A DNA stretch of 64,000 nt from a virus: positions 1 through 64,000 of the IMG/VR virus record IMGVR_UViG_3300005253_000523; one strand, written 5' to 3'. The position numbers and the translations under genes are program-made. Below the pieces are notes generated by a model, which was not told the origin of the DNA, did not search any database, and worked only from the letters and a program-made list of their open reading frames with translations. This document shows positions 3,212 through 59,737 of this stretch, one piece after another (position 1 is the stretch's first letter; each line of letters starts with the position of its first letter).

Positions 3212-3931
3212 TTATTCCGTGTCCACGAATTCTCCGTCGCTGTCGATCACGATCGTTCCATCGGTGTCAAGAATTATATCGAGAGCCAGGCCAGCAGCCT
3301 GACGCTGGATCCCACCGATCGGATCGACCTTGGCTCTCATCTTACCCGCGACGCCGGTCACATCTAATTCCAGCCCAGAGGTTCCTCCGTCAGCGCCGGC
3401 TCCCTGCAGATCCGCCGTGGTATGCAGCTCGGCCGCGATCGTATTCAGGATCTTGATCAGGCCGGCGCCGGCAACGACTGCGCCCAGCCGCGTGAACTCA
3501 CTGAACTGCAGCGGCGTGGTGTCGACTACGATCGGATCGTTGGTCACGAGGATCCATCCCGTATCGCCGTTCACGGTTCCCTCGGTGACGAAGAAGAACA
3601 TGCCGGCCGTGACCTCGCTGTCCTGATCAGCGTCGGTGGCCCGGGTGAGGATCCACGGGAGACTGCCACTGCCAACCTGGGTCACGGTGTAGATGCCGTG
3701 GTCCGGATCGGACGTCGCCTCATCCTTGACCGCGACGCGATTGTTCAGCGCCACCGCAACGCCGTCGACTGTCAGTGCGCCGTTCGCATTCGCGGTCAGC
3801 GTCTTGCCGATGCCAGAACCAGCAGCCGTGAACGCTGGCAGTGGCGCGTCCGTGGCAAGTCGGACCGATGCCTTCGGATCGAGGCCGGCGCCTCCGCCGC
3901 CACCGCCTCCTCTGGCAGGGATCAGCAGCAC
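3212..3931 (-). CDS. Fibre-associated virion protein
   Basis: 239 residues. The start is GTG at 3931, 6 nt after the stop of the upstream gene, with no clear Shine-Dalgarno, so coupling or re-initiation is likely. A glycine run (residues about 9-14) is followed by a domain with the pattern VRLATDAPLPAF, LTANANGALTVDG, VAVKDEAT, GIYTVTQVG, TRATDAD and GMFFFVTEGTVN. This pattern recurs in phage tail-fibre and appendage proteins. The C-terminal third is Gly/Ala/Asp rich. Its stop abuts the start of the long repeat protein, so the two are probably co-assembled in an adsorption structure. The exact role is not visible. Confidence 0.8.
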   Translation of the reverse strand: MLLIPARGGGGGGGAGLDPKASVRLATDAPLPAFTAAGSGIGKTLTANANGALTVDGVAVALNNRVAVKDEATSDPDHGIYTVTQVGSGSLPWILTRATDADQDSEVTAGMFFFVTEGTVNGDTGWILVTNDPIVVDTTPLQFSEFTRLGAVVAGAGLIKILNTIAAELHTTADLQGAGADGGTSGLELDVTGVAGKMRAKVDPIGGIQRQAAGLALDIILDTDGTIVIDSDGEFVDTE

Positions 3932-3937
3932 GGCGTA

Positions 3938-4339
3938 CTACGCCGAAGGCTTGTCGCCCTTGGTCGGCGCTTCCTCTCCCGTGGATTTGTCGACGGGTTT
4001 GAGTTCCATGATCCCGGTCTTCTCGTCGATGGTGTACAGCGAGAGCTGATCGACGCCAAACAGTTCCTCGATCTCCTTGTAGACCTTGGAGCGCTCCCCT
4101 TTGCGCACCGAGATCCGACCCATGGCCAGGTTCTGATCAAGCATGGCCTTGTTGACAGCGGGCACAGCCTCGATCGCTTTCGCGACACGGTTCGATGCAA
4201 CCTCCAACTCGGCCAATGACATTCGGCACTCGGCGTCGGCGGCACGAAGTTTCAGGAGTAGGATCTCCGGGAGAACGAAGTTGCCGTCGCTGTCGACCGG
4301 TGGTCCCTTGCCATTCTTGGCCTTCTTCCGTGGTGCCAT
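3938..4339 (-). CDS. Hypothetical protein in head operon
   Basis: 133 residues from an ATG at 4339. Basic N-terminus (APRKKAKNGKG), a helical middle with an LAELEVASNRVAKAIEAV stretch that could form a short coiled coil, and a polar C-terminus ending KGDKPSA. It lies between two other small proteins downstream of the capsid gene, so a minor virion or connector role is possible. I do not recognise the family. Confidence 0.7.
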   Translation of the reverse strand: MAPRKKAKNGKGPPVDSDGNFVLPEILLLKLRAADAECRMSLAELEVASNRVAKAIEAVPAVNKAMLDQNLAMGRISVRKGERSKVYKEIEELFGVDQLSLYTIDEKTGIMELKPVDKSTGEEAPTKGDKPSA

Positions 4340-4348
4340 GGTTTCACT

Positions 4349-4708
4349 CTACTGGGCTGTGGATGGGTGGACAACTTTACGCGATCGGACTCTGGGATTG
4401 TAGCGGTTTCGTCCCACGCGGATCAGATCGCAACGGACCAGCACACTGGTGATTGATCGCGTGAGAGTCACACGTACATTGTCAGCCTGGCAGAAGATGC
4501 GCTCTGCATTACCACCGACCAACTCCGCGCCGAAGTAATGCTCACGGAATCGACGCGGCACAGGCAGAACCGTCTGCGATCCGTTGAATAGAATCGCCAT
4601 GCCACGGACAGAGCCTTCACGGATCAGTTCATCGAGCGCCTCATGGCTCTCGGGTTCCTGCAGGTCGAAGGCTCTGGTATGGCCGTTGGCGAGATTCGCC
4701 AGGACCAC
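4349..4708 (-). CDS. Hypothetical protein in head operon
   Basis: 119 residues, start GTG at 4708, one base after the stop of the upstream gene (TGACGTG), which suggests translational coupling. Mixed alpha/beta composition with a basic C-terminus (RVGRNRYNPRVRSRKV). Not recognised. The operon position makes a small structural or completion protein the best guess. Confidence 0.65.
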   Translation of the reverse strand: MVLANLANGHTRAFDLQEPESHEALDELIREGSVRGMAILFNGSQTVLPVPRRFREHYFGAELVGGNAERIFCQADNVRVTLTRSITSVLVRCDLIRVGRNRYNPRVRSRKVVHPSTAQ

Positions 4709-4709
4709 G

Positions 4710-5027
4710 TCAGCGTCCGCGTCGCGGTCCGCCCTTGCCCTTGCCGGCCTTCACCGCCTTGGTCACCACCTCGGGCTCGGGTGTCTCGGACTCTGGTGTC
4801 TCGGGATCGCCAGCGTCTCCGCTTCCCTCGTCCGACGTCTTGTCCTTGGAGGCCGTCTTCCTGGGTGGCGGTTCGAACACCGAAAAACCACGGACGTTCT
4901 TGCAGTACTCGATCAGCTCCGCGTCGTTGCTCGTTCGTGTCCTGCCACGCTCGAACTTCCCGTGCGGCTTGATGGAGTACGTGGCTGCAGCACCGTTCCA
5001 CGTTATCTCGGCCATGGGTTTATCCAT
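4710..5027 (-). CDS. Small acidic/basic-tailed protein sharing a peptide with the scaffold
   Basis: 105 residues with a strong ribosome site (AGGAGG, 6 nt before the ATG). The N-terminal half (AEITWNGAAATYSIKPHGKF) looks like a small beta domain. The C-terminal half is Glu/Pro/Thr rich, then EVVTKAVKAGKGK and a basic end. The peptide EVVTKAVKAG also occurs in the scaffold-like protein at 6362-7714 and is encoded by an identical 32-bp stretch (4743-4774 versus 7142-7173). It lies just downstream of the major capsid gene, so it is probably a small capsid-associated protein. Confidence 0.75.
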   Translation of the reverse strand: MDKPMAEITWNGAAATYSIKPHGKFERGRTRTSNDAELIEYCKNVRGFSVFEPPPRKTASKDKTSDEGSGDAGDPETPESETPEPEVVTKAVKAGKGKGGPRRGR

Positions 5028-5059
5028 GCGATTCCTCCTGGTAAATGGTCAGTGGGTAA

Positions 5060-5077
5060 GAGGGCTTCTCAGCCCTC
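5060..5077 (-). terminator. Hairpin after the major capsid gene
   Basis: Seven-base-pair stem GAGGGCT/AGCCCTC with a GAGA tetraloop, followed on the minus strand only by TTA. It lies 17 bases downstream of the capsid stop. The weak U-tract suggests an attenuator or mRNA-stabilising hairpin that sets capsid expression apart from the genes below it. Confidence 0.4.
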
Positions 5078-5094
5078 ACAGGTTCAGCGGGAAA

Positions 5095-6297
5095 TTAGCT
5101 GGGGACCGCGATGTTCTTCACGAGCGTCAGAGCTGTCAGCTCCTCGATCTGCGCCTGCGCCTTCACCGTGATGGCGAACTCGTTGGCACCCCGGAAGATG
5201 TTCCGGTCCCGCTCGATGCGGATGTCGCGGCCGATGGCCAGGATGAGGTTCTTCGGATCGGTGAGCAGCATGCGGCCACCGGTCTTGTACGTGACCTTGA
5301 CGGTCGCGCCCGAGCCGATCGTGCCACCACCCAGGCGGGTGATGGTGCCGTTGGCCAGATCGACCGTGTAGTCGTTGCCGGCGCCGGCAACGAACTGGGC
5401 CTCTGGGTTCTTGCCCAGCGCCTGGTTGATCACGACCTGTCCGGTGATCGGCGAGAAGCTGAGCTGCGACGCCGTGGTGCCATCGGTGTTCATGACCACA
5501 TCCTCGGAGAACTGTGGCTCCGAGGGCAGCAAGGACACCGGCATCATCGGGATGCCGAACGGCCGAGGTGCATCGGCACCGTTGACGGCAGCGTCGCCGA
5601 GGCCGGTGCCACGGTTCGACAGACCCTCGCGGTACGCCTGCTCGTGATCGAACGACAAGAACCACCGCATCGCGGCCACGTTCTTGAGGAACTTGTTGGG
5701 CATGGCGCGCTTCGCCTGCCCGAAAACGCTCTGGGCGATCGTCGCGTTCTGCGCGTCGACGACGTTGCCGCCTTCGGCCAGGGCCAACCAACCCTGAAAC
5801 AGCGCGAGGTAGCTGTCCTTGACGAACAGCGTGGTGCTCCCACCTTCGATGAGGTCGGTTTCGAGAGCGGCGGGACCATTGGTCAAGCCACCCCAATACA
5901 ACTCTTCCAAGTTGTTGGCGAGCTGTCGCGCCATCATCTGAATGATGCGCTCCTCGATCTTGTCGCCCTCGATGTTGTGCTCCTTGAAGATGTCGCCGAT
6001 CTCGAACGGCACCATGATCTCGGAGGGCTGCAGCGTGATCTTGCTGGTCGTCACGCCACGACGAAGGTTGGGATCGACCGCCTCGGCCTTGGGAACCGCG
6101 ACACGATTGCCGACGCCGATCTTCTCGATCAGTGCCTGCTCGTTGCGGAACCTCTCGACCCGGACGACGTTCCGCATCGACGTCTCGTCAATGACGAAGT
6201 CGATGAAACGGTCAGCCTGCTTGGGATTGAGCTTCCCGGCATTCGCCAGGGCCGCCGTGGTGATGGTGGCCTTTTCGATCAGCTCTTTGTTGGTCAT
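5095..6297 (-). CDS. Major capsid protein
   Basis: 400 residues, ATG at 6297 preceded by AGGAG. The N-terminal region (LNPKQADRFIDFVIDETSM) and the later pattern QPSEIMVPFEIGD, ERIIQMMARQLANNLEE, YWGG and AMRWFLSFDHE follow the layout of phage major capsid proteins that start with a long helix rather than a cleaved delta domain. The central part FGIPMMPVSLLP and the C-terminal LLTDPKNLILAIGRDIRIERDR are typical of the shell fold, after which an extended tail ends the protein. It is flanked by a scaffold-like protein upstream and small virion genes downstream, as expected of a head operon. Identification is by pattern and context; length fits the family. Confidence 0.9.
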   Translation of the reverse strand: MTNKELIEKATITTAALANAGKLNPKQADRFIDFVIDETSMRNVVRVERFRNEQALIEKIGVGNRVAVPKAEAVDPNLRRGVTTSKITLQPSEIMVPFEIGDIFKEHNIEGDKIEERIIQMMARQLANNLEELYWGGLTNGPAALETDLIEGGSTTLFVKDSYLALFQGWLALAEGGNVVDAQNATIAQSVFGQAKRAMPNKFLKNVAAMRWFLSFDHEQAYREGLSNRGTGLGDAAVNGADAPRPFGIPMMPVSLLPSEPQFSEDVVMNTDGTTASQLSFSPITGQVVINQALGKNPEAQFVAGAGNDYTVDLANGTITRLGGGTIGSGATVKVTYKTGGRMLLTDPKNLILAIGRDIRIERDRNIFRGANEFAITVKAQAQIEELTALTLVKNIAVPS

Positions 6298-7741: not shown

Positions 7742-10105
7742 TCAATCCTCACGCAATTTCACGCGCCGCGCGAAACCACCCATGGAGAAGCCACGGAACT
7801 CTCCGCTCTTGATCTTCTTCCAGATCGACTTGTCGAGCACGTGATACATCACCAACCACGATCCCTTCTTAACTTTCTGTCCACCGATGGTCAAATTTAT
7901 GGGTGCGATGTAGCTCTCGAAGATCTCGACGACGCTGTTCACGTTCTTCCGATGCATCAGCCCACGGTTCTGGAACCTGGCCAGCCAACCATGCGCTGCC
8001 CTCTCGATGGTCACAGGCTTGACGGTATCCTCGTGTGCGTCGACCTCGTCCGGTTCGAGCACAATGCCAAGGACGATGTGCTTGTCCTCCTCGGCCTTGT
8101 CGATCGGAAGCATTCTGATCGTGTGACCATCAACGTCCTCGCGCTTCTCGGTCAGGATCACATCGGCCGGATCGATGCTGCCCTTCTCGATTGCTGCCAA
8201 CCTGGCGAGTTGCGTGGCTGGAGGCGCCGGTCCATTGCGTTGCTGCTCAGGCTTCCCCTGATCGGCCCAGAACTCACCGGGCATGATGCTGGTGAGTGAC
8301 TTGCCGTCGAGCTTCAAGCCGTGTGAATGGATCCCGTCGAATGCGGACGACATCACCTGCAGCTCGTGATCGTGACCACCGCCACCTTCGGTGGTCGTGA
8401 ATTCCTCTTCGTTGATCAGAACCTTGTGGACGTGCAGACCACTATCTGGAATCGTCTCGTTCGCAGTCGGCCGCGACATCGTGTGTTCGTGCTCGCCGTC
8501 TTCCTCGGTCACGACGCGCGTGCCATCAGCCAGAACGAATAAGTGAATGTGACGACCGTCGTTCTGGGTCTTCTTCGCTTCACGGATCAGGTTGTGAACG
8601 TGGACACCAGCCTCGGGCACCTGGTTCGGGAACCCCTTCAAGATTTTTTCCATGCTGCTGATCTTGATCAGCCTGCGCTCCTTGCTTGGCACGAGCGCGA
8701 GATCGAACAGCGGCATGTGATCACGGGTCGGTCTTGCCGATGCCTCGTGGAAGTGAACACGGCCACGGTGTTCCTCTGGTACCGATTCCTGCACGAACGA
8801 TTCGATGAGTTCTCGCGTCGCCGGATCGACGGGACCGTTGATGAGAATGCCGGCCGCGTCGACGACGATTGCGTTCGATCGCAAGACCATCGAATGTCCG
8901 AGGCTCTTGAGTAGCTCCTCCATCTTCGCGACGCGCTTGATGTTTTCACAGCGGCCAGTGCGTGAGTTGTAGCGTTTCCCGGGCGGACACTTCGGTTGGA
9001 TCTGCGCTGGCAACTTGCGACCACCAGGATCCAGCGACGGCGACGTGATCGTGTGCGACGCCTTGTTCTCCTTCGGTCGTCCGATGACTGCCTTCACGCC
9101 AGGCGCCAAGGTGATCGTCCGGAAAGATCCAGTCTGAAAATCCCCTGGATTCCGTTGCCGGAACCGGAAGCTGTTCGGCTTCTCGTCGACACCCTTGCCG
9201 TCGAATGTCGTTTTGAAATCGTTGTCCTTCAGCCACTGCCGCGCCTGCGCCAGCGAGAACTTCTCCTTGTCGAAAATGATCGTCTGGACTTCGGTGCTCG
9301 TGGGCTCCTGCTTGGCGACTCGCTTCGTCGCAAAGTTGCTGATCACGAAGGTCTTGTATGCCTTGTAGTTCCCACGACCATCGGGAACGGAATGTGAGAT
9401 CGCCTGGGTCTTGAAGTTTGATGGACCGGCGACGTCGTACGTGACGATGAACTTACTCTTCACGGTCTTGAGGAAGTTCCAGAACCCGTCGTGGTCGAAC
9501 TTCTTCTCGCCGACGTTCTGATCGGTCTTCACGTACGGTGGGTCCAGGAAGAACATCGTCGCCGGCCCGTCGAACTGCTTCATGACCTTGCGATAATCAG
9601 ACGAAAATACCTTGACGCCCTTGAGCCGCTCCTTGGCCTTCTCCAACCGATCCGGAACGGTGACGGTGGTACCGATCGCCGTGCGATCGATTCCGCCCTT
9701 CGGATTGCGCATGAAACCCATCCGTCGTGTCATCACTAACTTGTAGAAGCGCGTGATCTTTGTAGTCGGCGTGGACTTCTTCAACTGATTGAAGAGTTGC
9801 TCGGTCGCCTTCCAGCTCATCCGTTTCAGCGCAGCGAATTCGGCCGGCGTCATGTCACGGATGAACTTGAACGCCTCGGCGATGTCGGTGTCGAGATCGT
9901 TCAAGACCTCCGTCTCGACCTTGGTCTTGGCCCAGAACACAGCGGCACCACCAGCGAACGCTTCGACGTACGACTTGTGTTCCGGGAACAGCGGGATCAG
10001 ACGACCAGCCAGTCGCGACTTTCCTGCCGGCGATCCGAAGACCTGGGCACCGACGCGCTTCATCAGCTCGATGGCGTCAGGCGGAAGATCGTGCGGAGCG
10101 TTCAT
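7742..10105 (-). CDS. Fusion: Dam-type adenine methyltransferase + His-rich domain + XkdF-like prohead protease
   Basis: 787 residues if the ATG at 10105 is used, which overlaps the stop of the MuF gene (ATGA). Residues about 20-260 are a D12-class N6-adenine methyltransferase: EAFAGGAAVFW (48-58) is the SAM motif and DPPY (188-191) the catalytic motif. Residues about 283-347 hold a domain (QARQWLKDNDFKT, FRFRQRNP, IGRPKE) that I recall from phage protease fusions. Residues 450-595 contain seven H-x-H motifs (HFH, HVH, HIH, HEH, HVH, HDH, HSH). Residues about 673-787 match the XkdF-type protease: HIVLGIVLEPDEVDA, MHRKNVN, SWLVMYHV and RGFSMGG, where the Ser is the likely nucleophile. The protease would mature the prohead; the joined methylase is very unusual. 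No frameshift or stop separates the parts. Confidence 0.85.
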   Translation of the reverse strand: MNAPHDLPPDAIELMKRVGAQVFGSPAGKSRLAGRLIPLFPEHKSYVEAFAGGAAVFWAKTKVETEVLNDLDTDIAEAFKFIRDMTPAEFAALKRMSWKATEQLFNQLKKSTPTTKITRFYKLVMTRRMGFMRNPKGGIDRTAIGTTVTVPDRLEKAKERLKGVKVFSSDYRKVMKQFDGPATMFFLDPPYVKTDQNVGEKKFDHDGFWNFLKTVKSKFIVTYDVAGPSNFKTQAISHSVPDGRGNYKAYKTFVISNFATKRVAKQEPTSTEVQTIIFDKEKFSLAQARQWLKDNDFKTTFDGKGVDEKPNSFRFRQRNPGDFQTGSFRTITLAPGVKAVIGRPKENKASHTITSPSLDPGGRKLPAQIQPKCPPGKRYNSRTGRCENIKRVAKMEELLKSLGHSMVLRSNAIVVDAAGILINGPVDPATRELIESFVQESVPEEHRGRVHFHEASARPTRDHMPLFDLALVPSKERRLIKISSMEKILKGFPNQVPEAGVHVHNLIREAKKTQNDGRHIHLFVLADGTRVVTEEDGEHEHTMSRPTANETIPDSGLHVHKVLINEEEFTTTEGGGGHDHELQVMSSAFDGIHSHGLKLDGKSLTSIMPGEFWADQGKPEQQRNGPAPPATQLARLAAIEKGSIDPADVILTEKREDVDGHTIRMLPIDKAEEDKHIVLGIVLEPDEVDAHEDTVKPVTIERAAHGWLARFQNRGLMHRKNVNSVVEIFESYIAPINLTIGGQKVKKGSWLVMYHVLDKSIWKKIKSGEFRGFSMGGFARRVKLRED

Positions 10106-12255
10106 GGTCCGAAAGATAGTACCACCGGCTCGGTACGGCACAGCGGATGGAACGGTGGCAGGACTGCCCCGGCCTCGATCAGACGATCGGTAGCGTCTCC
10201 ACTTCCCTTATCAGCACCGTCCAGTGCTTCCTCAATCGCAGGGCCAGAGATCCACGGTTGGATCTGTCGAATTTGTTCAGGATTCTTCGCGTCGAGGAAA
10301 CGATCGATGTGCTTGCCAGCAGTCTCGACCGTGAATGTCTGACCAACCATTTGCTGGCAGTTGTGTACTACGACATCAGCAACGATGTACGTAGGATCAT
10401 CTCCCTCAATCTCCAGGTTATAGCAAGGCAGGGCCAGCTTGATCGGTTCAAGACGTAGGGGAATCCAACCAATCAGGCAGTCTGTTTCAACTTGCGACGC
10501 GTCCGTACACCAGCGAGCGCCATGATCAGGGTACGAGTAATGGCTTTGATCGGATCCCTTTTTAGATCGGCCTCTCGGATCCTCACAGCGATCCAGCCGT
10601 TGCGAATGATGGCTTCCTGTTTTGATTGGCTTATGACCCGCCCTTTTGTGGTGTGCCAATATATTCCATCCACCTCCAAGGCTATCGAACCAAGAATCAA
10701 GAAATCCACGGATCCATTTCCCGCTTGTACTTCCGCCTCGTATCGCAGACCGAGATATTTCAGGGTCTCCTCGACGGCCAACTCCGGATAGGTCGCCGCC
10801 GTACTTCGGCAGTAGCACGCCTTCGAACAGTAACGCTTGTTCAGCCCTTTGAATTCCCCGCCGCAATGCTGGCACAGTCGTGCTTGAGAATATGTCGCAC
10901 ATTTTCGCGAACAGTGTTCTCTTCGTTTTTGCAATAAAACCTCGACGGGCTTCAACCTGAATCTCTTGCTGCACCGCTTGCACCGAGTCCAGAGCGCTTC
11001 CGGTGGCAAACCTTTCCTTCCGGCCTTTCTGCGACATGCCAATGAACAGTGTCTCCAACTGCCTCTGAGGACTTCCGCTCTGCGCCTCTCGATGACCTTT
11101 CCGCAGTGTTCGCAGGCCGTCGTTAACCAGTAAATCTTTTTTTTGTGGCGATATTGGCACTCCCGACCGCAATACTTCTTCCTGTAGTATCTGGACGGAT
11201 GCGTTCGTATCGCTGCCCCGCAACCTACGCACTCTAACGAAATCGGCATCTGTTATCTCCCGAGCCGCCACCCAACCCCTAGCAGTCAGGATTTCGTGCT
11301 CTGGAGTGATCATAAATCGATGACCGAACGAATTACAGACAAACCAGTCCTCGTTCACCCGTCGTTTTGAAACAGCCTGCACACGCCGCTTGAATCCGTG
11401 CCCTGTCAGGATTTCTGTACCAGGCGTCACGTCTTCGATCGGCAGCTTGCCTCCACTACCCAGGGTCACAAGAGACCCTGGCGCAAAACATATCTGTCCA
11501 GTACGATCGTCATTGGGATTGGTCAGGCGATAGGTTATGACTCCGCCCTTCTGGAAGCCTTCGATCTTCGAGAAGGTCCGTCCCTGCTGGGCGGCCACGC
11601 TGGAGAGCTGCCGGAAGTAGAGTTCGGGATTGCCGGCGTACTGCGCGGGAATCGTCGGCGCGAATGAAGTGACACCACCAGGCACCAGACCGAACTCACG
11701 ACCGAGCACCGGACCCAGCTCTGCCGACGCCGCCCGGAAGCTCAGTCCCTGGTTGAGGATCACGTCCTCGGTCACGCCAGCGATACGCCGGCTGAGTTGC
11801 TCGCTGTAGAAGTCGCCGACCCAGAACACGTGATGGCGTCGGATCGCCTTGACGGTGCGCGTACTGCGCAATGAGAAGCTGAGCTGAACGCGCGCTTCAC
11901 GCTGGGTCAGCTTCAACGTCCGAGAGTAGATCCGCTTCACCAGACCCTCGGTGATCACCTTCTGTGGATTGGTCATCGGCGATGCCAATGGCGCCGCCAG
12001 ACGTTTCAAGAACGATGACATCGCCTTGCGAGAACTGTTCCCCGCCTTGCGATACGCGACCAGGCTGCCGGCGAGCGAACCACGTGCGGCACGCTTCCAG
12101 GATCGGTTGGTGAGTTCGGTGAGCTGCTTCTCCGTCTTGATCGTCATGCGACGGATGTTCGACTCCGCCTTCAATATCGCAGCCAGTGTGCTCTCAACTT
12201 CTTCCGACAACTCCATGAGCGTCGGTGTCGTGAGAGCGTCTAGATCAATCCTCAT
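10102..12255 (-). CDS. MuF-like minor head protein, interrupted by an intein
   Basis: 717 codons. The N-extein (1-255) is a helical, basic protein that ends with the MuF-type pattern TNPNDDRTGQI. The C-extein (85 residues) continues with CQQM and ends with LPPFHPLCRTEPV, the classic C-terminal MuF signature. Joined, the mature protein would be 340 residues and read RTGQI-CQQM. MuF proteins sit inside the head next to the portal and help DNA packaging or ejection. The start at 12255 overlaps the end of the portal gene by 11 bases. The intein covers 10360-11490 and itself contains an endonuclease gene in another frame. Confidence 0.88.
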   Translation of the reverse strand: MRIDLDALTTPTLMELSEEVESTLAAILKAESNIRRMTIKTEKQLTELTNRSWKRAARGSLAGSLVAYRKAGNSSRKAMSSFLKRLAAPLASPMTNPQKVITEGLVKRIYSRTLKLTQREARVQLSFSLRSTRTVKAIRRHHVFWVGDFYSEQLSRRIAGVTEDVILNQGLSFRAASAELGPVLGREFGLVPGGVTSFAPTIPAQYAGNPELYFRQLSSVAAQQGRTFSKIEGFQKGGVITYRLTNPNDDRTGQICFAPGSLVTLGSGGKLPIEDVTPGTEILTGHGFKRRVQAVSKRRVNEDWFVCNSFGHRFMITPEHEILTARGWVAAREITDADFVRVRRLRGSDTNASVQILQEEVLRSGVPISPQKKDLLVNDGLRTLRKGHREAQSGSPQRQLETLFIGMSQKGRKERFATGSALDSVQAVQQEIQVEARRGFIAKTKRTLFAKMCDIFSSTTVPALRRGIQRAEQALLFEGVLLPKYGGDLSGVGRRGDPEISRSAIRGGSTSGKWIRGFLDSWFDSLGGGWNILAHHKRAGHKPIKTGSHHSQRLDRCEDPRGRSKKGSDQSHYSYPDHGARWCTDASQVETDCLIGWIPLRLEPIKLALPCYNLEIEGDDPTYIVADVVVHNCQQMVGQTFTVETAGKHIDRFLDAKNPEQIRQIQPWISGPAIEEALDGADKGSGDATDRLIEAGAVLPPFHPLCRTEPVVLSFGP
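10360..11490 (-). mobile_element. Intein in the MuF-like gene
   Basis: 377 codons. The first residue is Cys (CFAPGSLVTLGSGG, block A), followed by EDVTPGTEILTGHGFK and the block B region with MITPEHEILTARGWV. The end has CYNLEIEGDDPTYIVAD (block F) and VVVHN (block G), followed by Cys as the first extein residue. All splicing residues look intact: Cys1, the TxxH-type block B (TPEH), the terminal His-Asn, and Cys+1. The roughly 250 codons between the blocks have no recognisable domain in this frame; in the +1 frame the same DNA encodes a complete endonuclease. Confidence 0.9.
10473..11249 (-). CDS. VSR-like homing endonuclease encoded out of frame inside the MuF intein
   Basis: 258 residues, ATG at 11249 with GGGAG 7 nt upstream. 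Four zinc-binding repeats of the type CxxC...(H/Y)CxxxC occupy about residues 7-150: CVGC/CGREC, CEHC/CSLAC, CKRC/CSRKC and CQHC/CSKAC. The C-terminal 100 residues form a VSR/PD-(D/E)XK-type nuclease: PELAVEETLKYLGL, GSVDFLI, ALEVDGIYWH and IIRNGWIAVRI. The layout of zinc-finger DNA binding plus VSR-like nuclease fits homing endonucleases. It reads in the +1 frame relative to the intein, starts after the N-terminal splicing blocks and stops before block F, so it lies entirely within the intein without touching the splicing motifs. Confidence 0.88.
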   Translation of the reverse strand: MPISLECVGCGAAIRTHPSRYYRKKYCGRECQYRHKKKIYWLTTACEHCGKVIERRRAEVLRGSWRHCSLACRRKAGRKGLPPEALWTRCKRCSKRFRLKPVEVLLQKRREHCSRKCATYSQARLCQHCGGEFKGLNKRYCSKACYCRSTAATYPELAVEETLKYLGLRYEAEVQAGNGSVDFLILGSIALEVDGIYWHTTKGRVISQSKQEAIIRNGWIAVRIREADLKRDPIKAITRTLIMALAGVRTRRKLKQTA

Positions 12256-15085
12256 TGTCGTCGAAGCGTTTCAGAATCTGCTGGTCGACTGACTTACGGA
12301 AGTTCTGCAGTTTCTCGATCATATCCTCAGCGATTTCTTCGGCGATCGTTTCACCATTCGGAACATCACCGGAAAGAATCTTGTCGACTTCGGCCTGGCT
12401 CGTTTTTGCGCCGACCTGAGCGAGCGCGAACTGCAACGAGTACGGCACATCGAGCTCGATGCCCTTGGGCTCCGGTCCGAAGTCTTCGCCGAACACATCC
12501 TTGCCGATGTTGTCTGCTCTGCGTGGTGTCATACCACCAGACTTCTCAAGGATGTTTGCCATCTTCACTAGGATCTCGTCGTCGGTGATATTCGGGTGCA
12601 TCGACTTGAACGCATGGAATCGAGCCTTCCATCGGGTCATCACGAATCGATTGAACAACTCGTCGTCGTCAGCACGGTCAGGACCGAAGACCTGCTCGTC
12701 GCCGACGCGCTTCGAGACGGCTGCCGTCGAACGGTTGTAGTCTTCGGAGTTACCCGAGATCAGGACGCGGCCATTTCGACGAGTGACCAGCATGCCATTG
12801 GGCACCGTGAAGCAGGACACCTTACCCTTGTACGGGACACGTGAAATCTGTTTCTTTTGCAACAGATGACGCTGATCACGATGACCGTTGCTTACCCAGA
12901 TTGTCGACCATCCCTCTTCACTACGATCTACCTGACGAGTGGTGAGCGCAATACCAAGACGAACACAAATCTCGTGGAGCTGATCGTTCAATAACTTCGA
13001 AGTCGTACCGTATGTGAATGATCCTTCGCTACCCATCGCGGGACGACTACCATCGCCATCGATCATTGCATCGAGTAATACCTGAAGCTGATCGGCCTCA
13101 ACGCCGAGAACCCAACGAGGCAGACATTTATTCTTGGCGCCATGACCGCAACTATCACGGAGCCATCGCCACATCCCAACGTGACAGGCGCTGATATTCA
13201 ACTGACCGGGATGCGATTCGCAGACCCCTACTTTGAAACTCATCTCCTTAAGAGTCCGGATCATGTCATCCGCAACTTCACCAACATTTTGAGACAGGTT
13301 GAATGGACCAGGCGTTTCGGTCGTACTCCCCTCGCTGACAAAATAACCAAGGAACTTTAAGAATGTCGTGCCGTCGACGTTCCAACCTTCGCGATCCTCA
13401 TAGCGTTCTAGATCGCGGGTAGGATTTTTGCTCGGCTTATCAGGATGCCAGGTATTATTCGGATCGTTTCGCGGTACCTCGAAGGCTTCGTAATAGCGAC
13501 CGCGCCAAGATGCCGAGACAGGGATTTCCAAACAACCACCACCATTGCCACCACGAACATTCTGAAGATCACCGGCTTCACAAAATCTCCACGGGCGCTC
13601 AGGCCAAGCACTAGCAGCCGTTGGTCGCGTCCACATTCGATGGTTCGGCGTGACCAGTGCATCAATGCCACGGTTCTTCAAGTGAATCAGTTCGCCGTCA
13701 TAGTCGTACTGATGGCGGGCAGTCGGGACTTGATACTCAACTTCTCCGGTCGCAGCGTTGTAGGTTGCAAGAGCCTGCTGCGAACTAATCTCGTCGTACT
13801 TCTGCCAACCACGGTCGGTCAAATACTCCGTATCGGATGAGCTACAACGCCCCACGAAGATCGGCGGCAGGCGGAAGCTCTGGCGGATCTTGTCGCGGTT
13901 GTTCTTGTCGTACTCCAACCACAGCTCGTCCCTCTGCTGGTGTGGCTTGGTCGGCTCGATCCGAATCTTGAACGCAGTCGGATTCGGATTGCCCTCATCC
14001 ATCGGCTCACCTTCGAGGATGATCATCGAGCTGTAATTTGCCTCCTGTTGCAGCGACTCGATGAACTCAGTTACGCGCTTAACGCTACCATCGGTGAGCG
14101 TTCCGTTCTCGACGATGAGAAATAACGACGGGACTGCGTTGTTAGACAGCGTGTTGAAGTTCAGCTCCTGCGCCTTGCGACTGCCGAAGAACTCGAAGAT
14201 CGCTCCAATCCATTCGGGAACGCCGTAAGAAGAGTGCGGCGAATAGATTTTGTGATGGAGAACGCTGGTGGCGCGCATCGGAAACTCGATTGGTTTTTCA
14301 TTCGTGCCGTATTCACCGGTCGTGAAGTCGAGATCCCGTGGATCGCCCGCCTCCTTGAAGAATCGGATCCTCTCCGCGCGGATCTGAACGTAACGCCGAA
14401 AGCGCGAGAGCATCTTGACATTGCCGATCGTCAGATCCTCATTGATCACTGGCACGTCGATGACAACTGGATCACGCTCCAGAGAAGTCATGCGAACCGT
14501 ATGCGCATGGATGTGACCGAGTCCAACGAGTTCGCGGTTGGGTGCATCGATCAGTTCCATGTAGCCATTGCCCGTCTGGACCTTGTCGTGCTTGATGCGC
14601 GCACGGATCTCTGTGAGAGACAGCTTCGGATGGACCGCCGATAGTCGAGTACTCAGCCGGGCCTTCTCCGTGTTGATCTCGGTCTCGAATTTCGATCGGA
14701 TCTTCTCGTTGCGCAGGAGCATCGACTCCTTCAATCGGTGGCCGAACTTCACAGTGTTCGTGACCATCGTGCGAATGTTCTGGCCCAGCTCGTTGCTGTT
14801 ATCCATGGCCAGCGCGAGGAAACTCAAGTCGTAGGGTGGATCGATGACGGTGGCGCGGCCTTCGATCTTCGTGTGAAAGAGATCGTCCTCCTCACTCGAT
14901 GCGTGGCCAAGACTGCGTCCGCCTTCCGGAACCTGCGGCAGCCCATCCTGCTTCTCGATCTTCCGCAGTCCCTCACGAGGACTGATGATCGTCGCCCTGA
15001 GAACCTGATGGTGGCGCTTGCCAGACTTGTCGACGACTTCGACTGGCAGTGTGCGGACGGTTTCGGCGGTAGCGTCTTTGGCCAT
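12245..15085 (-). CDS. Portal protein, interrupted by a LAGLIDADG intein
   Basis: The gene starts at ATG 15085; a GTG nine bases upstream (15094) is in frame but less likely. The N-extein (about 413 residues) has a portal-type body: LDFTTGEYGT, TSVLHHKIYSPHSSYGVPEWIGA, LNFNTLSNNAVPSLFL and QSFRLPPIFVGR. The C-extein (167 residues) continues SEDYNRSTA. The join IFVGR-SEDYN is a conserved place in portals of this type. The portal is the DNA entry ring at the head vertex and docks TerL. It sits between small virion genes and MuF, as in many phage head operons. The intein occupies 12749-13846. Confidence 0.88.
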   Translation of the reverse strand: MAKDATAETVRTLPVEVVDKSGKRHHQVLRATIISPREGLRKIEKQDGLPQVPEGGRSLGHASSEEDDLFHTKIEGRATVIDPPYDLSFLALAMDNSNELGQNIRTMVTNTVKFGHRLKESMLLRNEKIRSKFETEINTEKARLSTRLSAVHPKLSLTEIRARIKHDKVQTGNGYMELIDAPNRELVGLGHIHAHTVRMTSLERDPVVIDVPVINEDLTIGNVKMLSRFRRYVQIRAERIRFFKEAGDPRDLDFTTGEYGTNEKPIEFPMRATSVLHHKIYSPHSSYGVPEWIGAIFEFFGSRKAQELNFNTLSNNAVPSLFLIVENGTLTDGSVKRVTEFIESLQQEANYSSMIILEGEPMDEGNPNPTAFKIRIEPTKPHQQRDELWLEYDKNNRDKIRQSFRLPPIFVGRCSSSDTEYLTDRGWQKYDEISSQQALATYNAATGEVEYQVPTARHQYDYDGELIHLKNRGIDALVTPNHRMWTRPTAASAWPERPWRFCEAGDLQNVRGGNGGGCLEIPVSASWRGRYYEAFEVPRNDPNNTWHPDKPSKNPTRDLERYEDREGWNVDGTTFLKFLGYFVSEGSTTETPGPFNLSQNVGEVADDMIRTLKEMSFKVGVCESHPGQLNISACHVGMWRWLRDSCGHGAKNKCLPRWVLGVEADQLQVLLDAMIDGDGSRPAMGSEGSFTYGTTSKLLNDQLHEICVRLGIALTTRQVDRSEEGWSTIWVSNGHRDQRHLLQKKQISRVPYKGKVSCFTVPNGMLVTRRNGRVLISGNSEDYNRSTAAVSKRVGDEQVFGPDRADDDELFNRFVMTRWKARFHAFKSMHPNITDDEILVKMANILEKSGGMTPRRADNIGKDVFGEDFGPEPKGIELDVPYSLQFALAQVGAKTSQAEVDKILSGDVPNGETIAEEIAEDMIEKLQNFRKSVDQQILKRFDDNED
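12749..13846 (-). mobile_element. LAGLIDADG intein in the portal gene
   Basis: 366 codons. It begins with Cys (CSSSDTEYLTDRGW, block A), has block B near ALVTPNHRMW, and two dodecapeptide motifs of an in-frame LAGLIDADG endonuclease: FLKFLGYFVSEGS and LQVLLDAMIDGDGS. It ends with VSCFTVPNGMLVTRRNGRVLISGN, with Ser as the first C-extein residue. The C-terminal residues are Gly-Asn instead of the usual His-Asn, a tolerated variation. Both acidic residues of the dodecapeptides (E and D) are present, so the endonuclease may be active. Confidence 0.9.
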
Positions 15086-15106
15086 GTCACCCACTCAGAT
15101 GGGTGA

Positions 15107-55943: not shown

Positions 55944-56846
55944 TCAAGGGACGAGCCCGGCCTCGGTCGGGCTTTTCTCTTTTTGGAAAAGCATCTGGAA
56001 TGCTAACGCCGCTTGCTGCGGGACGACGGCGTTGCCGAGACATCCAATTCGGTCCACCCGCTTTGGAACCCCATGAGCCACTCGACCCACGTCGGGTTCA
56101 ATGTTCCACCAGCCACTATCGGTAGAGGTTCGCTGCCGATCGAGTTCGCCCCCCTTTTGGCTCCCTTGAACGTCCTTTGGTCGCGCCGAACAGGAGTGGG
56201 CCACATTTTCACGGCTGCGCCGAGACTCGGGTTCCCCTTTTGATACATCGTCGGGCCCCTGTCGCCATCCGATCTTGTCGGCGTCGGCCACATGCCGCGC
56301 GCCACTCCGTCCAGCGTTGGGCGAAGCGTCCCACTCTTGTCGCGCTGCCATCCTCCCGCCTCGTTCGCTCGCGGCGTGGGCAAGAATAAAGACTCGACGC
56401 CGGAGATGGGGCGCTCCAACGTCGGCCGCTCGAAGCACCGACCACTCTGCATCGTACCCGCAAGCGGCCAAGTCTCCGAGTACACGGTCGAGTCCCCGGT
56501 TAACGAGAGCTGCGACGTTTTCAATGAACACGTATCGGGGTCGAAGTACGCGAATGATGCGGGCGAACTCTGACCAGAGTCCGGACCTCTCTCCATCGAT
56601 GCCGGCGCGCTTCCCTGCGTTGCTGATGTCCTGGCAGGGGAACCCTCCACAGATGATGTCTGGTCGTTCCGTTTGCTCATCCACTTCCCTCACATCATTG
56701 TATCGCTTGACCTCTGGCCAGTGCTTGGCCAATACAGCGCGGGCATATGGATCCGACTCCGCCTGCCAGATCACTGGACCCAGACCGCACATCTCAAGGC
56801 CAAGTTCAAGGCCACCGATGCCAGAGAAAAGAGATCCGATTTTCAT
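55944..56846 (-). CDS. DNA (cytosine-5) methyltransferase
   Basis: 300 residues. Motif I LFSGIGGLELG (6-16), motif IV GGFPCQDIS with catalytic Cys (67-75), motif VI ENVAALV (109-115), motif VIII PHLRRRVFILAH (146-157) and motif X GNAVVPQ (271-277) are all present in order. The stretch between motifs VIII and X (about 160-265) is short and polar (VADADKIGWRQ, WWNIEPDVGRVAHGVP), in place of a normal target-recognition domain. It is ATGA-coupled to the SNF2 gene. Residues about 56-281 are also coded in the +1 frame by another gene. Confidence 0.92.
   Translation of the reverse strand: MKIGSLFSGIGGLELGLEMCGLGPVIWQAESDPYARAVLAKHWPEVKRYNDVREVDEQTERPDIICGGFPCQDISNAGKRAGIDGERSGLWSEFARIIRVLRPRYVFIENVAALVNRGLDRVLGDLAACGYDAEWSVLRAADVGAPHLRRRVFILAHAASERGGRMAARQEWDASPNAGRSGARHVADADKIGWRQGPDDVSKGEPESRRSRENVAHSCSARPKDVQGSQKGGELDRQRTSTDSGWWNIEPDVGRVAHGVPKRVDRIGCLGNAVVPQQAALAFQMLFQKEKSPTEAGLVP
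56003..56680 (-). CDS. Overprinted gene inside the cytosine methyltransferase
   Basis: 225 residues in the +1 frame. FAYFDPDTCSLKTSQLSLTG, YSETWPLAGTMQSGRCFERP, TLERPISGVESLFLPTPRAN, MWPTPTRSDGDRGPTMYQKG and the end TLNPTWVEWLMGFQSGWTEL. The motif SLKTSQ...SETWP...G and the end WVEWLMGFxxGWTxL are familiar from phage proteins encoded next to cytosine methyltransferases, so this frame is very likely translated as well. Function unknown; it may assist or regulate the methylase. Confidence 0.75.
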   Translation of the reverse strand: MSKRNDQTSSVEGSPARTSATQGSAPASMERGPDSGQSSPASFAYFDPDTCSLKTSQLSLTGDSTVYSETWPLAGTMQSGRCFERPTLERPISGVESLFLPTPRANEAGGWQRDKSGTLRPTLDGVARGMWPTPTRSDGDRGPTMYQKGNPSLGAAVKMWPTPVRRDQRTFKGAKRGANSIGSEPLPIVAGGTLNPTWVEWLMGFQSGWTELDVSATPSSRSKRR

Positions 56847-59737
56847 TCGCCCACTTTCGATACTAGCGACATCACGAAGTCAACGATGCTCCGCTTGTCG
56901 TGCAGGGACCTGTAGATCCCTTCGTCGATCGTCTTGCTGGCCACCATCATCACGTTAGTTACCTTGCGGGTCTGACCCGGTCTATGGACGCGTGCCTTCG
57001 CCTGATCCAATTCGCCGAGGCTGTAGCCGATCGAGTAGAACACTGCATACCGCGCACGCGTGAGATCGACGCCGAGCCCACCGGACTGGATCTGCACTGC
57101 CAGTATCGGCGCGCCGCCCTCCTGCCACTCCGCAAGCTGATTGCGGCGTCCCGATAGTTCCAGGCAGTTTGTGTCGACTGCCTCGGCTGCAGCGTGAACG
57201 TTGTCGAGGTCGTGGTGGAATCTGCAGAAGACCACCATTGCCTCGCCGGCACTGGCGCCGGCCTCCTCCATCACCTCTTGCAAGACCTTGGCCCGGCTAT
57301 CACCCACTTCGTGGATTTTGCCGTCGTCGTCCTTGGCATAGCCCGACGTCGCCTGTTGCAGCTTGAGCACCTTCACCAATGCATTGGCGGCCGTGACTTG
57401 TTCGCCCGACTCGACCCAGGCAATCAGATCGCGGAAGAGTTCGTTGTGTAGCTTGCGCTCCGCCTTGCCCAGCGGCACGTCGCGAGTCACGTCGATCACG
57501 TCTGGAAGATCGAGAACGTCGCGGCTCACGTGCAGGGTAATGGTATCCATGCGTGCCTTGAGATCGTCGAGGTTCTGGTACTGCGACGTCTCTGGATAGT
57601 GCATGGTCTTTTTCGCCTGGCTGATCAGATTGGCATAGACGTTGATCTTCCAGCCGACGTCCTTGTTAGCGCGATCGCCTCTGTCCCCTGCGAGTTCGAT
57701 CGTGTCGACGATCTCCTGATCGGTCATCTGAAACTTAATGCAGCGGATCACGAGCGACAGCTCACGGGAGAAAATGTTCTTGAACTTCTTCTCGCCAGTG
57801 AAGATCGCTTTGAAGTCGGCGTCGTTGGTCAGTGCGACCTGTAAGCGATCGGGCTGAGATGGATCCTTCTGCACCTTGAACGTTGCTGGCGTGATGTACT
57901 TGAGCTTGAATTTGGTATAGCTGTCGCCATAGATGCCTGGGTCCAGGGCACGGAACTCGGCGAAGACGTCAGCGGGACCGTGAGGCATGAGCGTGCCCGA
58001 CAACCCGGTCGCATGCTTGGTGCTGTGTCGGAGCGTGCTACAGAACAGCGACGCGCGCCCGGTGGGACTCTTGATGCGGTGGCAATTATGAACAAGTAGC
58101 CCGTTGGCAAAGTAGTTGCCAGTACCCGTTTCTAGGTTGAAGACCTTACGGCTTTTAACACTTCCTCCATCACATGATCCGTTTTGTCGATCACAATCTG
58201 ATTTGGAAATCTCAGAACGGTCCATCCTCGCCGCCGAAGAAACCGATCTTTCTTCCTGTCCTTGGCTTTTACGGTTGACGTCGTATGGGACCACCCGTCG
58301 ACCTCGATCGCGATTTTGAGAGTCGGTTCTGCAATATCGATCTTGTAGTGTGTCGGGAAACCTGGTCGTCGCGGCTTTATCGAGATGATGTGTTCGATCG
58401 GCCAACCGAGACGTGCTGCCAAGAGTTTCTGTGGGATTGTTGGCTCCCTGCCGTTGCCACCGTTCAACTGCCGATATCCTTGCTCTCGTAACGTTGCTTG
58501 TCCTTTGGCTCTGATCTTTTTCGCAGTTGCAGGATTCTTGAAGGGATTGCGATTTGAAAGAAGATAGGTAGCGAGTTTCTTTCTGAACTCTGGTTGTCGC
58601 TGTTGATTTTTCATTCTCTCTCGTGCCAGCTCTCGTCTCCGTTCCGTGTCCAGCGTTGCCACAAAATCCGGACGAGACATGCGCCATTGGGCTGAGCAAC
58701 TCCTTCCGCAAAATCGTGTCGGACGGCTCTTGACTTTCTGTTTGTACTTCCGCCCGCACCATTCGCATCGCGACTTCGGATCCGCCATTGAAAATGCGTT
58801 TTAACTCAATGTGGGTCACAAAGTCAAAATTCGATACATCGCCTGCAGGTACATAACCATGTGTTGTCCACACAGGATGATTCGGTGTCAGCATCGTATC
58901 GTTGACACGGACTAAACTGTTCGAGGTTTCCCTGCGGAAAGTGAATCGAATCGGTGTCTCGGTTACCTGACATTCGTTGTCCATTCCGTAGACCAGATCT
59001 CCTTCGGCCAGTTCGCTAATCGGTCGATCGCCTTCTGGTGTCGCGATCATCGTATCGCCAGGTACACATTCATCCATGACCACCAGATCCCACGGCATCA
59101 CCCGAGCCCAGTCGCCGAACGGATCCCGCCAGGCACCCTCGTAGTTGATCACGAACATCAAGTTGCCGCCTCCGGACGGCGCCGCATTGGCTGCGGCGAA
59201 TATCTTGTCGGCGAAGTCAGTTCGCTTCTGGATGGTGCCGTCGCGCAGGGCCACGACACGTATGTCCACGGCCGCGTACTTCTCCACCTCCAGCGGCCAT
59301 ACCGATATGACGGACGCAGGGCAGAGCACCAACGTGCGGCGGAGATCGTAGTTCGTGATGGCGTCGATCACGGATCGGGTCTTGCCCGTGCCCATGCCGC
59401 CGTCGATGCAGGACGCACCGAGCTGACCGATCATGTTGGTCGCCTCGATCTGGTGTTTCCAGGGTGGCGGATCCTTGGTGATGAGCTTGGTCGATGCGAG
59501 AGGCACGTCCATGGTCGCGTATGCGAGCAGATCACCTCCGTCGATAGTGAACTTGTGACGGGTCAGGCAGGCGCGCAAGGCACGCGCCACTGCCGGCGTG
59601 CGATCATAAGACCATGCCCGCTGCGCTTTGTTCCAGCGCACGGTCGGGATCGCCTTCAGGTCTTTGTTAAGCGTCTGGTCGAACGGCGTGTGAACAAAGA
59701 AGTGGTCATCCTGCGCTTCGATTCGTGCGGTTGGCAT
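56843..59737 (-). CDS. SNF2-type helicase, interrupted by an intein in the DECH box
   Basis: 964 codons. Walker A GGMGTGKTRSVID (113-125), motif Ia LVLCPASVISVWPLEVEKY and motif II VVMDE-CHRIKSP, with the intein between Glu and Cys. Motif III LSGTLMPHGP, then motif V IQSGGLGVDLTRARYAVFYS and motif VI QAKARVHRPGQTRKV. Spliced, the protein is 636 residues, with DECH as a natural DExH box. SNF2 proteins translocate on dsDNA; in phages they often help replication or remove proteins. ATGA-coupled to the methyltransferase. Intein at 58085-59068. Confidence 0.9.
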   Translation of the reverse strand: MPTARIEAQDDHFFVHTPFDQTLNKDLKAIPTVRWNKAQRAWSYDRTPAVARALRACLTRHKFTIDGGDLLAYATMDVPLASTKLITKDPPPWKHQIEATNMIGQLGASCIDGGMGTGKTRSVIDAITNYDLRRTLVLCPASVISVWPLEVEKYAAVDIRVVALRDGTIQKRTDFADKIFAAANAAPSGGGNLMFVINYEGAWRDPFGDWARVMPWDLVVMDECVPGDTMIATPEGDRPISELAEGDLVYGMDNECQVTETPIRFTFRRETSNSLVRVNDTMLTPNHPVWTTHGYVPAGDVSNFDFVTHIELKRIFNGGSEVAMRMVRAEVQTESQEPSDTILRKELLSPMAHVSSGFCGNAGHGTETRAGTRENEKSTATTRVQKETRYLSSFKSQSLQESCNCEKDQSQRTSNVTRARISAVERWQRQGANNPTETLGSTSRLADRTHHLDKAATTRFPDTLQDRYCRTDSQNRDRGRRVVPYDVNRKSQGQEERSVSSAARMDRSEISKSDCDRQNGSCDGGSVKSRKVFNLETGTGNYFANGLLVHNCHRIKSPTGRASLFCSTLRHSTKHATGLSGTLMPHGPADVFAEFRALDPGIYGDSYTKFKLKYITPATFKVQKDPSQPDRLQVALTNDADFKAIFTGEKKFKNIFSRELSLVIRCIKFQMTDQEIVDTIELAGDRGDRANKDVGWKINVYANLISQAKKTMHYPETSQYQNLDDLKARMDTITLHVSRDVLDLPDVIDVTRDVPLGKAERKLHNELFRDLIAWVESGEQVTAANALVKVLKLQQATSGYAKDDDGKIHEVGDSRAKVLQEVMEEAGASAGEAMVVFCRFHHDLDNVHAAAEAVDTNCLELSGRRNQLAEWQEGGAPILAVQIQSGGLGVDLTRARYAVFYSIGYSLGELDQAKARVHRPGQTRKVTNVMMVASKTIDEGIYRSLHDKRSIVDFVMSLVSKVGE
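58085..59068 (-). mobile_element. Intein in the SNF2 helicase gene
   Basis: 328 codons. Block A CVPGDTMIATPEGDRPISEL, block B region with DTMLTPNHPVWTTHGYV and C-terminal VFNLETGTGNYFANGLLVHN, then Cys of the extein. Cys1, TPNH, terminal His-Asn and Cys+1 are present, so splicing should work. Between block B and block F about 215 codons in this frame are Ser/Arg/Thr-rich with no domain; the same DNA codes for an endonuclease in the +1 frame. Confidence 0.9.
58132..58788 (-). CDS. VSR-like homing endonuclease encoded out of frame inside the SNF2 intein
   Basis: 218 residues from ATG 58788 (no strong ribosome site). One zinc knuckle CEWCGRKYKQKVKSRPTRFC then GRSC, a NUMOD3-like helical part (RNPFKNPATAKKIRAKGQAT then LREQGYRQLNGGNGREP), and a PD-(D/E)XK-type nuclease: PTHYKIDIAEPTLKIAIEVD, GWSHT, KKDRFLRRRGWTVLRFPNQI. 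Its start lies after block B and its stop before block F. The frame relation to the intein is the same (+1) as in the MuF intein. Confidence 0.88.
   Translation of the reverse strand: MADPKSRCEWCGRKYKQKVKSRPTRFCGRSCSAQWRMSRPDFVATLDTERRRELARERMKNQQRQPEFRKKLATYLLSNRNPFKNPATAKKIRAKGQATLREQGYRQLNGGNGREPTIPQKLLAARLGWPIEHIISIKPRRPGFPTHYKIDIAEPTLKIAIEVDGWSHTTSTVKAKDRKKDRFLRRRGWTVLRFPNQIVIDKTDHVMEEVLKAVRSST

Follow-up and report, generated by a model that had tools for sequence, protein, structure and literature searches.

The window analyzed here, 64,000 nucleotides from an IMG/VR virus record of 69 kb (IMGVR_UViG_3300005253_000523), carries on its minus strand a phage SNF2-type helicase gene whose Walker B box is very probably occupied by a mobile intein, with a homing endonuclease overprinted, in +1, on the linker that joins the Hint splicing blocks. 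Judging from its sequence, the host ribosome can read across the whole intein, and the +1 frame encodes a conserved zinc-knuckle plus PD-(D/E)XK (EDxHD/Vsr-like) nuclease held under purifying selection. This arrangement, with splicing blocks in one frame and an endonuclease at 58132-58788 in the +1 frame, had been proposed in a sequence-only reading of the window, and it is borne out by the open reading frames (ORFs), by Pfam matches, and by synonymous shuffling of the nuclease sequence.

The helicase ORF (56843-59737, minus strand) encodes 964 amino acids with no stop across the intein, and it matches the PHROG 62 DNA helicase (1.2e-89). Pfam identifies SNF2/Helicase_C and Hint_2 in this host frame, the Hint_2 match (1.1e-5) falling slightly under the curated cut-off. 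The intein comprises 328 amino acids (58085-59068), with C1 at 59068 and the codon of its last Asn ending at 58085; its sequence opens with CVPGDTMIATPEG and closes with VFNLETGTGNYFANGLLVHN, followed by the +1 Cys at 58084-58082 within VVMDE/CHRIKS, where the slash marks the insertion site. All of the intein hallmarks are present, namely C1, the block B motif TPNH (TxxH), the C-terminal VHN, and the +1 Cys. The N-terminal Hint block, which contains TPNH (residues 1-88, 58805-59068), matches solved inteins by profile and is modeled with a predicted local distance difference test score (pLDDT) above 90 over most of its length, and the C-terminal Hint block with blocks F and G (VFNLET...LLVHN, 58085-58150) is likewise modeled above 90. 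Profile and fold matches of the two segment ends to the Hint fold include Mtu RecA, NpuDnaB, gp41-1, and NrdJ-1. On either side lie the N-extein (59069-59737), which ends in the Walker B sequence ...VVMDE, and the C-extein (56843-58084), whose first residue is the +1 Cys of CHRIKS. When the exteins are joined with the intein omitted, they align without a gap at the site to an uninterrupted phage helicase, L335 (VVMDECHRIKSPTG versus IICDESHRIKSPNS). The gapless flanks and the Hint ends together therefore identify the segment as an intein in a conserved ATPase motif. A group I or group II RNA intron was ruled out, as the window contains no Rfam match at the gathering threshold and the insert is translated through, with protein-splicing blocks at both sides. 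The fractured-gene layout was not found in the window either, where helicase and intein form a single ORF (59737-56843).

The endonuclease ORF (58132-58788, minus strand; 218 amino acids) lies in the +1 frame of the helicase. Its ATG overlaps the intein codons F-N-G and its TAG stop sits in the block F codons N-L-E (AAC CTA GAA), so that its last 19 nucleotides also encode the C-terminal Hint block. In the +1 frame, Pfam matches DUF559 (5.6e-13) and MTES_1575; the linker read in the host frame has no match. A zinc knuckle (C8-x2-C11 ... C27-x3-C31, 58696-58767), nearly invariant in 48 aligned members, is followed by an NPFKNP...GGNG segment (58450-58548), a helix and a conserved GGNG ahead of the nuclease core, in which GNG is invariant and NP nearly invariant in the same alignment. 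The core itself (P-HYKID...AIEVDG-SH...D...GW-VLRF, 58198-58356), covered by the DUF559 match, has D151, D164, H168, and D177 invariant and E162 nearly invariant. The single zinc knuckle had been read correctly from the sequence; the NUMOD3-like repeats also proposed for this nuclease were not recovered, the NPFKNP...GGNG segment giving no match to Pfam NUMOD3 at E ≤ 0.1. AlphaFold models the endonuclease with a mean pLDDT of 92; in the intein model, the Hint parts exceed 90, and the intein-frame linker, at ∼45, is disordered. Among PDB folds, the homing endonuclease I-Bth0305I matches best (3r3p; E 2.8e-3, template modeling (TM) score 0.72 on target), and a profile comparison with the same type gave an E of 0.0038. 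The endonuclease has the catalytic-domain fold and active-site residues of EDxHD/Vsr-like nucleases of the I-Bth0305I type. The element is not a canonical bifunctional intein, as the endonuclease lies in the +1 frame rather than in that of the splicing domain.

IMG/VR and 84,980 prokaryote genomes were scanned and, with duplicates removed, gave 151 non-redundant relatives with a recognizable intein, from both phages and bacteria. In 142 of these the intein is uninterrupted and the nuclease is nested within it in +1; nesting in +2 was seen in none, two (L173 and L250) have the nuclease in frame, and in seven it lies between the halves of a split intein. A second sampling, made with the intein N block (a narrow alignment) instead of the nuclease, showed that nearly all inteins at DE/C carry the nuclease in +1. 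Within the phage collection, the gene overlying a nuclease relative is nearly always annotated as helicase or P-loop ATPase or is a large ORF without a name, and in all six annotated loci that were fetched (from Vibrio, Corynebacterium, and Pseudomonas phages) the nuclease is +1 to an uninterrupted host ORF, with only the host-frame gene named in the annotation. The host genes are mostly superfamily 2 (SF2) helicases, with Helicase_C in 31 of 43 scanned, and a second group encodes AAA+ clamp-loader-like ATPases. The N-extein ends in DE at 121 of 140 loci, and the +1 residue among these 140 is C at 122, S at 17, and T at one. Since the nuclease stop falls 8 to 57 nucleotides ahead of the intein end (10th-90th percentile), overlap with blocks F and G is general in the family. 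A search of plasmids for the nuclease gave no match. The helicase-type architecture is old, inherited, and widespread. Also encountered were 15 minimal Hint domains of 129-147 amino acids, running from CFP... to ...VHN (L274, L279, L296, L303, L304, L307, L309, L312, L315, L321, L323, L327, and L330-L332); they sit in Gly-rich viral proteins and are mostly followed at +1 by Gly, not Cys, Ser, or Thr, and may act by cleavage rather than splicing.

Synonymous shuffling of the endonuclease served as the null for stops in the intein frame. The window endonuclease has none, compared with a mean of 8.7 after shuffling, and not one of 500 shuffles was free of stops. Across 99 loci the intein-frame count was zero in every case, where 8.9 per locus would be expected. 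In the +1 layout, a stop in the intein frame can arise only from a wobble T followed by a nuclease codon beginning AA, AG, or GA, and T is found at 0 of 1595 nuclease wobble positions where it would create such a stop, compared with 3800 of 6825 elsewhere (56% of pyrimidine wobbles). While this absence restates that the frame is open, openness was not a criterion when the loci were collected, and the intein frame is open in 107 of the 109 loci of the first sample that bear an N block. Over 34 independent pairs, the median ratio of nonsynonymous to synonymous differences (pN/pS) was 0.42 in the nuclease frame and 1.06 in the intein frame, with 0.28, 0.25, and 0.44 substitutions at the three codon positions. 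Amino-acid constraint thus acts in the nuclease frame only; stops are kept out of the intein-frame linker, whose residues are not conserved. The result is a rare long overprint (∼650 nucleotides) with selection for protein in one frame and only against stops in the other.

How the hidden nuclease is translated can be judged from the sequence ahead of it. In 57 of 129 relatives, the ATG closest to the zinc knuckle on its upstream side shows a Shine-Dalgarno match of at least 5; among other host ATGs the share is 4.9% (odds ratio 15). A nuclease-frame stop lies inside the intein in all 142 loci, at a median of 234 nucleotides past C1 and 33 nucleotides ahead of the usual ATG. The enrichment and the upstream stop therefore make internal initiation more likely than a fusion made by frameshifting. 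A programmed ribosomal shift from the intein frame into +1, which would yield a Hint-N/endonuclease fusion with no separate initiation, would agree with the constant +1 offset, with the window ATG lacking a recognizable Shine-Dalgarno sequence, and with the five of 142 loci that lack a good start codon close to the knuckle. It is nevertheless unlikely, as the upstream stop leaves only a short zone for a shift at any of the 142 loci, the Shine-Dalgarno enrichment ahead of the ATG is strong, and terminase inteins, described below, use the +2 frame.

In relatives of the window element, the intein and its hidden nuclease are gained or lost as one unit at DE/x between near-identical phages. The Corynebacterium phages phi673 (intein plus) and phi674 (intein minus), which share a common laboratory host, have 99% identical flanks and differ at DE/x by exactly 906 nucleotides, corresponding to the whole intein plus hidden nuclease; the first codons past the site differ too, as expected of a conversion tract. 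Likewise, CP-T1 and vB_VchM-138 differ by exactly 1059 nucleotides at the same motif, DEAHH becoming DE-intein-CHH. A third pair, L001/L339, shows the empty site (DEAHH) at the protein level, but no clean nucleotide boundaries were obtained. Decay is visible as well, as a truncated nuclease that is still in register (L257) and as a 143-amino-acid mini-intein without nuclease (L292), an example of the insert-free form that the sequence-only reading had suggested looking for. In seven split relatives (L108, L177, and L179-L183), helicase and intein are in two parts with the nuclease between the halves and +1 to both, and in L108 about 20 intein-frame stops separate the halves. These seven form one clade among nested sequences, with a support of 100. 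The simplest reading is that the fractured layout would have arisen from the overprinted state through relaxed stop avoidance, a direction that the tree suggests.

Stand-alone nucleases, the other form suggested for searching, were found in three relatives (L095, L007, and L102). In L095, a Spirochaetaceae metagenome-assembled genome, the 3′ end of the free-standing nuclease (3887-4501) runs into the beginning of an uninterrupted helicase ORF (4462-5955). In a nuclease tree rooted with a DUF559 outgroup, the deep branches are held by nested members with the free-standing ones scattered among them, and the window nuclease clusters with other nested ones in both trees that were built. Because the deep branching order is poorly supported in both, the positions of these sequences inside nested clades do no more than suggest that fractured and free-standing forms derive from nested ones. 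The sequence-only reading had given, as an example of a mechanism, insertion of a free-standing endonuclease gene into a mini-intein, and a recent, independent event of this kind in the window helicase would fit the existence of the three free-standing relatives, one of them directly upstream of an uninterrupted helicase, and of the nuclease-less mini-intein L292 at the same kind of site. Such an event is improbable here, however, given the grouping of the window nuclease with nested ones, allowing for the weak deep branches, and the placement of free-standing forms inside nested clades, because of which they look derived or interchanging. While the tree disfavors recent insertion at this locus, the broader idea that nucleases have entered inteins out of frame more than once is supported, as set out below.

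L173 and L250, which carry the same nuclease in frame, would fit a reading in which only the intein functions and the +1 ORF has decayed or frameshifted from an in-frame homing domain or stems from a sequencing error, but this very remote reading is refuted by the comparative data: the same offset recurs at 142 loci, cultured phages included, and the +1 frame shows purifying selection, complete catalytic residues, and a confident fold. Equally remote is a functional domain in the intein-frame linker of which the +1 similarity would be a shadow, since the few intein-frame residues that look conserved (for example L241 and Q242) are conserved nuclease H-Y-K codons read one base off, and the linker has a pN/pS of ∼1, no Pfam or otherwise recognizable domain, and a pLDDT of ∼45.

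Several points weigh against an overprinted, mobile intein in the window. The presence/absence pairs stem from relatives and not from the window phage, and splicing, cleavage, and homing are all inferred from sequence. The window ATG, as noted, lacks a Shine-Dalgarno sequence of its own, and the sequences compared are not phylogenetically independent, making p-values merely indicative.

The window also contains a second out-of-frame case, with which the helicase intein had been compared in the sequence-only reading. This case is confirmed: an ORF at 10102-12255 (minus strand), named MuF-type in that reading, has an intein at 10360-11490, and a Vsr/MTES_1575-type endonuclease of 258 amino acids with four zinc fingers (10473-11249, minus strand) lies in its +1 frame. 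The two are not copies of each other, as the endonucleases align over 36 amino acids only (E 0.001) and the inteins are 28% identical over 50. Relatives of the MuF nuclease, from mycobacteriophages and viral contigs, are mostly free-standing. One of them (L170, 3512-4436) overlaps with its end the start of the next large ORF, and a Hint N block lies ∼3.7 kb downstream. Terminase inteins add further examples, with an HNH_3 nuclease hidden in +2 (L269, L293, and L329) or a NUMOD1-type ORF in +1 (L290 and L301). The presence of unrelated nucleases in MuF and terminase inteins, at both offsets, indicates that out-of-frame entry into inteins happened more than once. Repeated capture is thus supported for at least four nuclease types (DUF559/EDxHD in +1, four-zinc Vsr in +1, NUMOD1-type in +1, and HNH_3 in +2) in the inteins of SF2/AAA+ ATPases, MuF proteins, and terminases. 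The description of the helicase intein as a second independent case holds insofar as it is not a copy of the MuF case; it is not a separate event in this genome, since no fewer than 142 inteins in the sample carry this endonuclease in this frame.

The shared +1 offset had also been taken to argue for a repeatable mechanism. This is weak evidence, because only two same-strand offsets exist, stops arising under +1 can be removed silently, and terminases use +2. A Met followed by K, N, T, I, or M occurs in 129 of 140 nucleases and under +2 entails a stop in the intein frame for most codon contexts, whereas under +1 every such stop is a wobble T that can be changed silently to C, which makes +1 the tolerant offset. 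The constant offset was therefore rejected as proof of mechanism; tolerance and, for the rest, common ancestry explain it.

Elsewhere on the minus strand of the window, the portal protein ORF (12245-15094) contains an in-frame LAGLIDADG_3 match, apparently a third, conventional intein-like insertion. The ORF at 7742-10141 combines an N-terminal D12-class DNA methyltransferase match with a C-terminal XkdF-type protease, and a long ORF at 56003-56680 overlaps a DNA methyltransferase gene (55944-56846) in another frame.

A working model for the helicase element would begin with translation of the helicase-intein precursor, whose splicing would release active helicase, the linker forming a disordered loop. 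Internal initiation on that mRNA would yield the nuclease as a separate protein, which would cut helicase genes lacking the intein at the point where they encode Walker B, and repair there would copy the unit in. The element might later decay to a mini-intein or, where stops in the linker are tolerated, give rise to a split intein around a separate endonuclease gene. On balance, we lean toward out-of-frame encoding as a distinct, widespread, and repeatedly evolved intein architecture that keeps splicing and homing evolutionarily uncoupled and is the evolutionary origin of fractured-gene split inteins via relaxed stop avoidance; the two-frame layout is a likely source of naturally split genes. 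The overprinted family would provide a stepwise route between an in-domain endonuclease and the separate gene of split inteins, and it suggests that many regions of phage inteins recorded in databases as linker or disordered hide nucleases missed by annotation.

Standard accounts place the endonuclease within the intein as one of its domains or, for split inteins, in a gene of its own. No intein with a homing endonuclease in another frame was found in the library searched, which did not include a possibly overlapping preprint on actinobacteriophage inteins and non-canonical architecture (Gosselin et al. 2025, doi 10.1101/2025.01.02.630785). Group I and group II introns with homing endonuclease ORFs resemble the window element in having a separate nuclease ORF within a mobile element, but the window insert is translated through, is flanked by protein-splicing blocks, and matches no RNA intron family. 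Canonical bifunctional inteins, such as the HNH_3 intein of cyanophage CL131 (PMC6293099), share the Hint blocks around a homing endonuclease and a conserved gene as insertion target, whereas the window endonuclease is not part of the intein polypeptide. In the fractured genes of Dassa et al. 2009, as cited in PMC3229294 and PMC12350094, split inteins are combined with EDxHD/Vsr homing endonucleases. The same broad nuclease superfamily is there found between two intein halves, and the profile of the window intein matches gp41-1 and NrdJ-1. The window and its 142 nested relatives differ in having one uninterrupted ORF with the nuclease overprinted, while the seven split relatives (L108, L177, and L179-L183) adopt the fractured layout in the same relative frame. 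The closest precedent found is the ShiLan domain (PMC11855218), in which out-of-frame HNH nucleases occupy phage methylase inserts without a splicing domain. Both systems are patchily distributed and have an insert without host-frame stops that encodes a homing-type nuclease in another frame, and a comparable hidden nuclease in that report, Pacc40, has a free-standing relative beside an uninterrupted methylase. ShiLan has no Hint or splicing domain and uses an HNH nuclease in the third frame, whereas the window element is a full intein around a DUF559/EDxHD nuclease in +1 and targets the Walker B box of ATPases.

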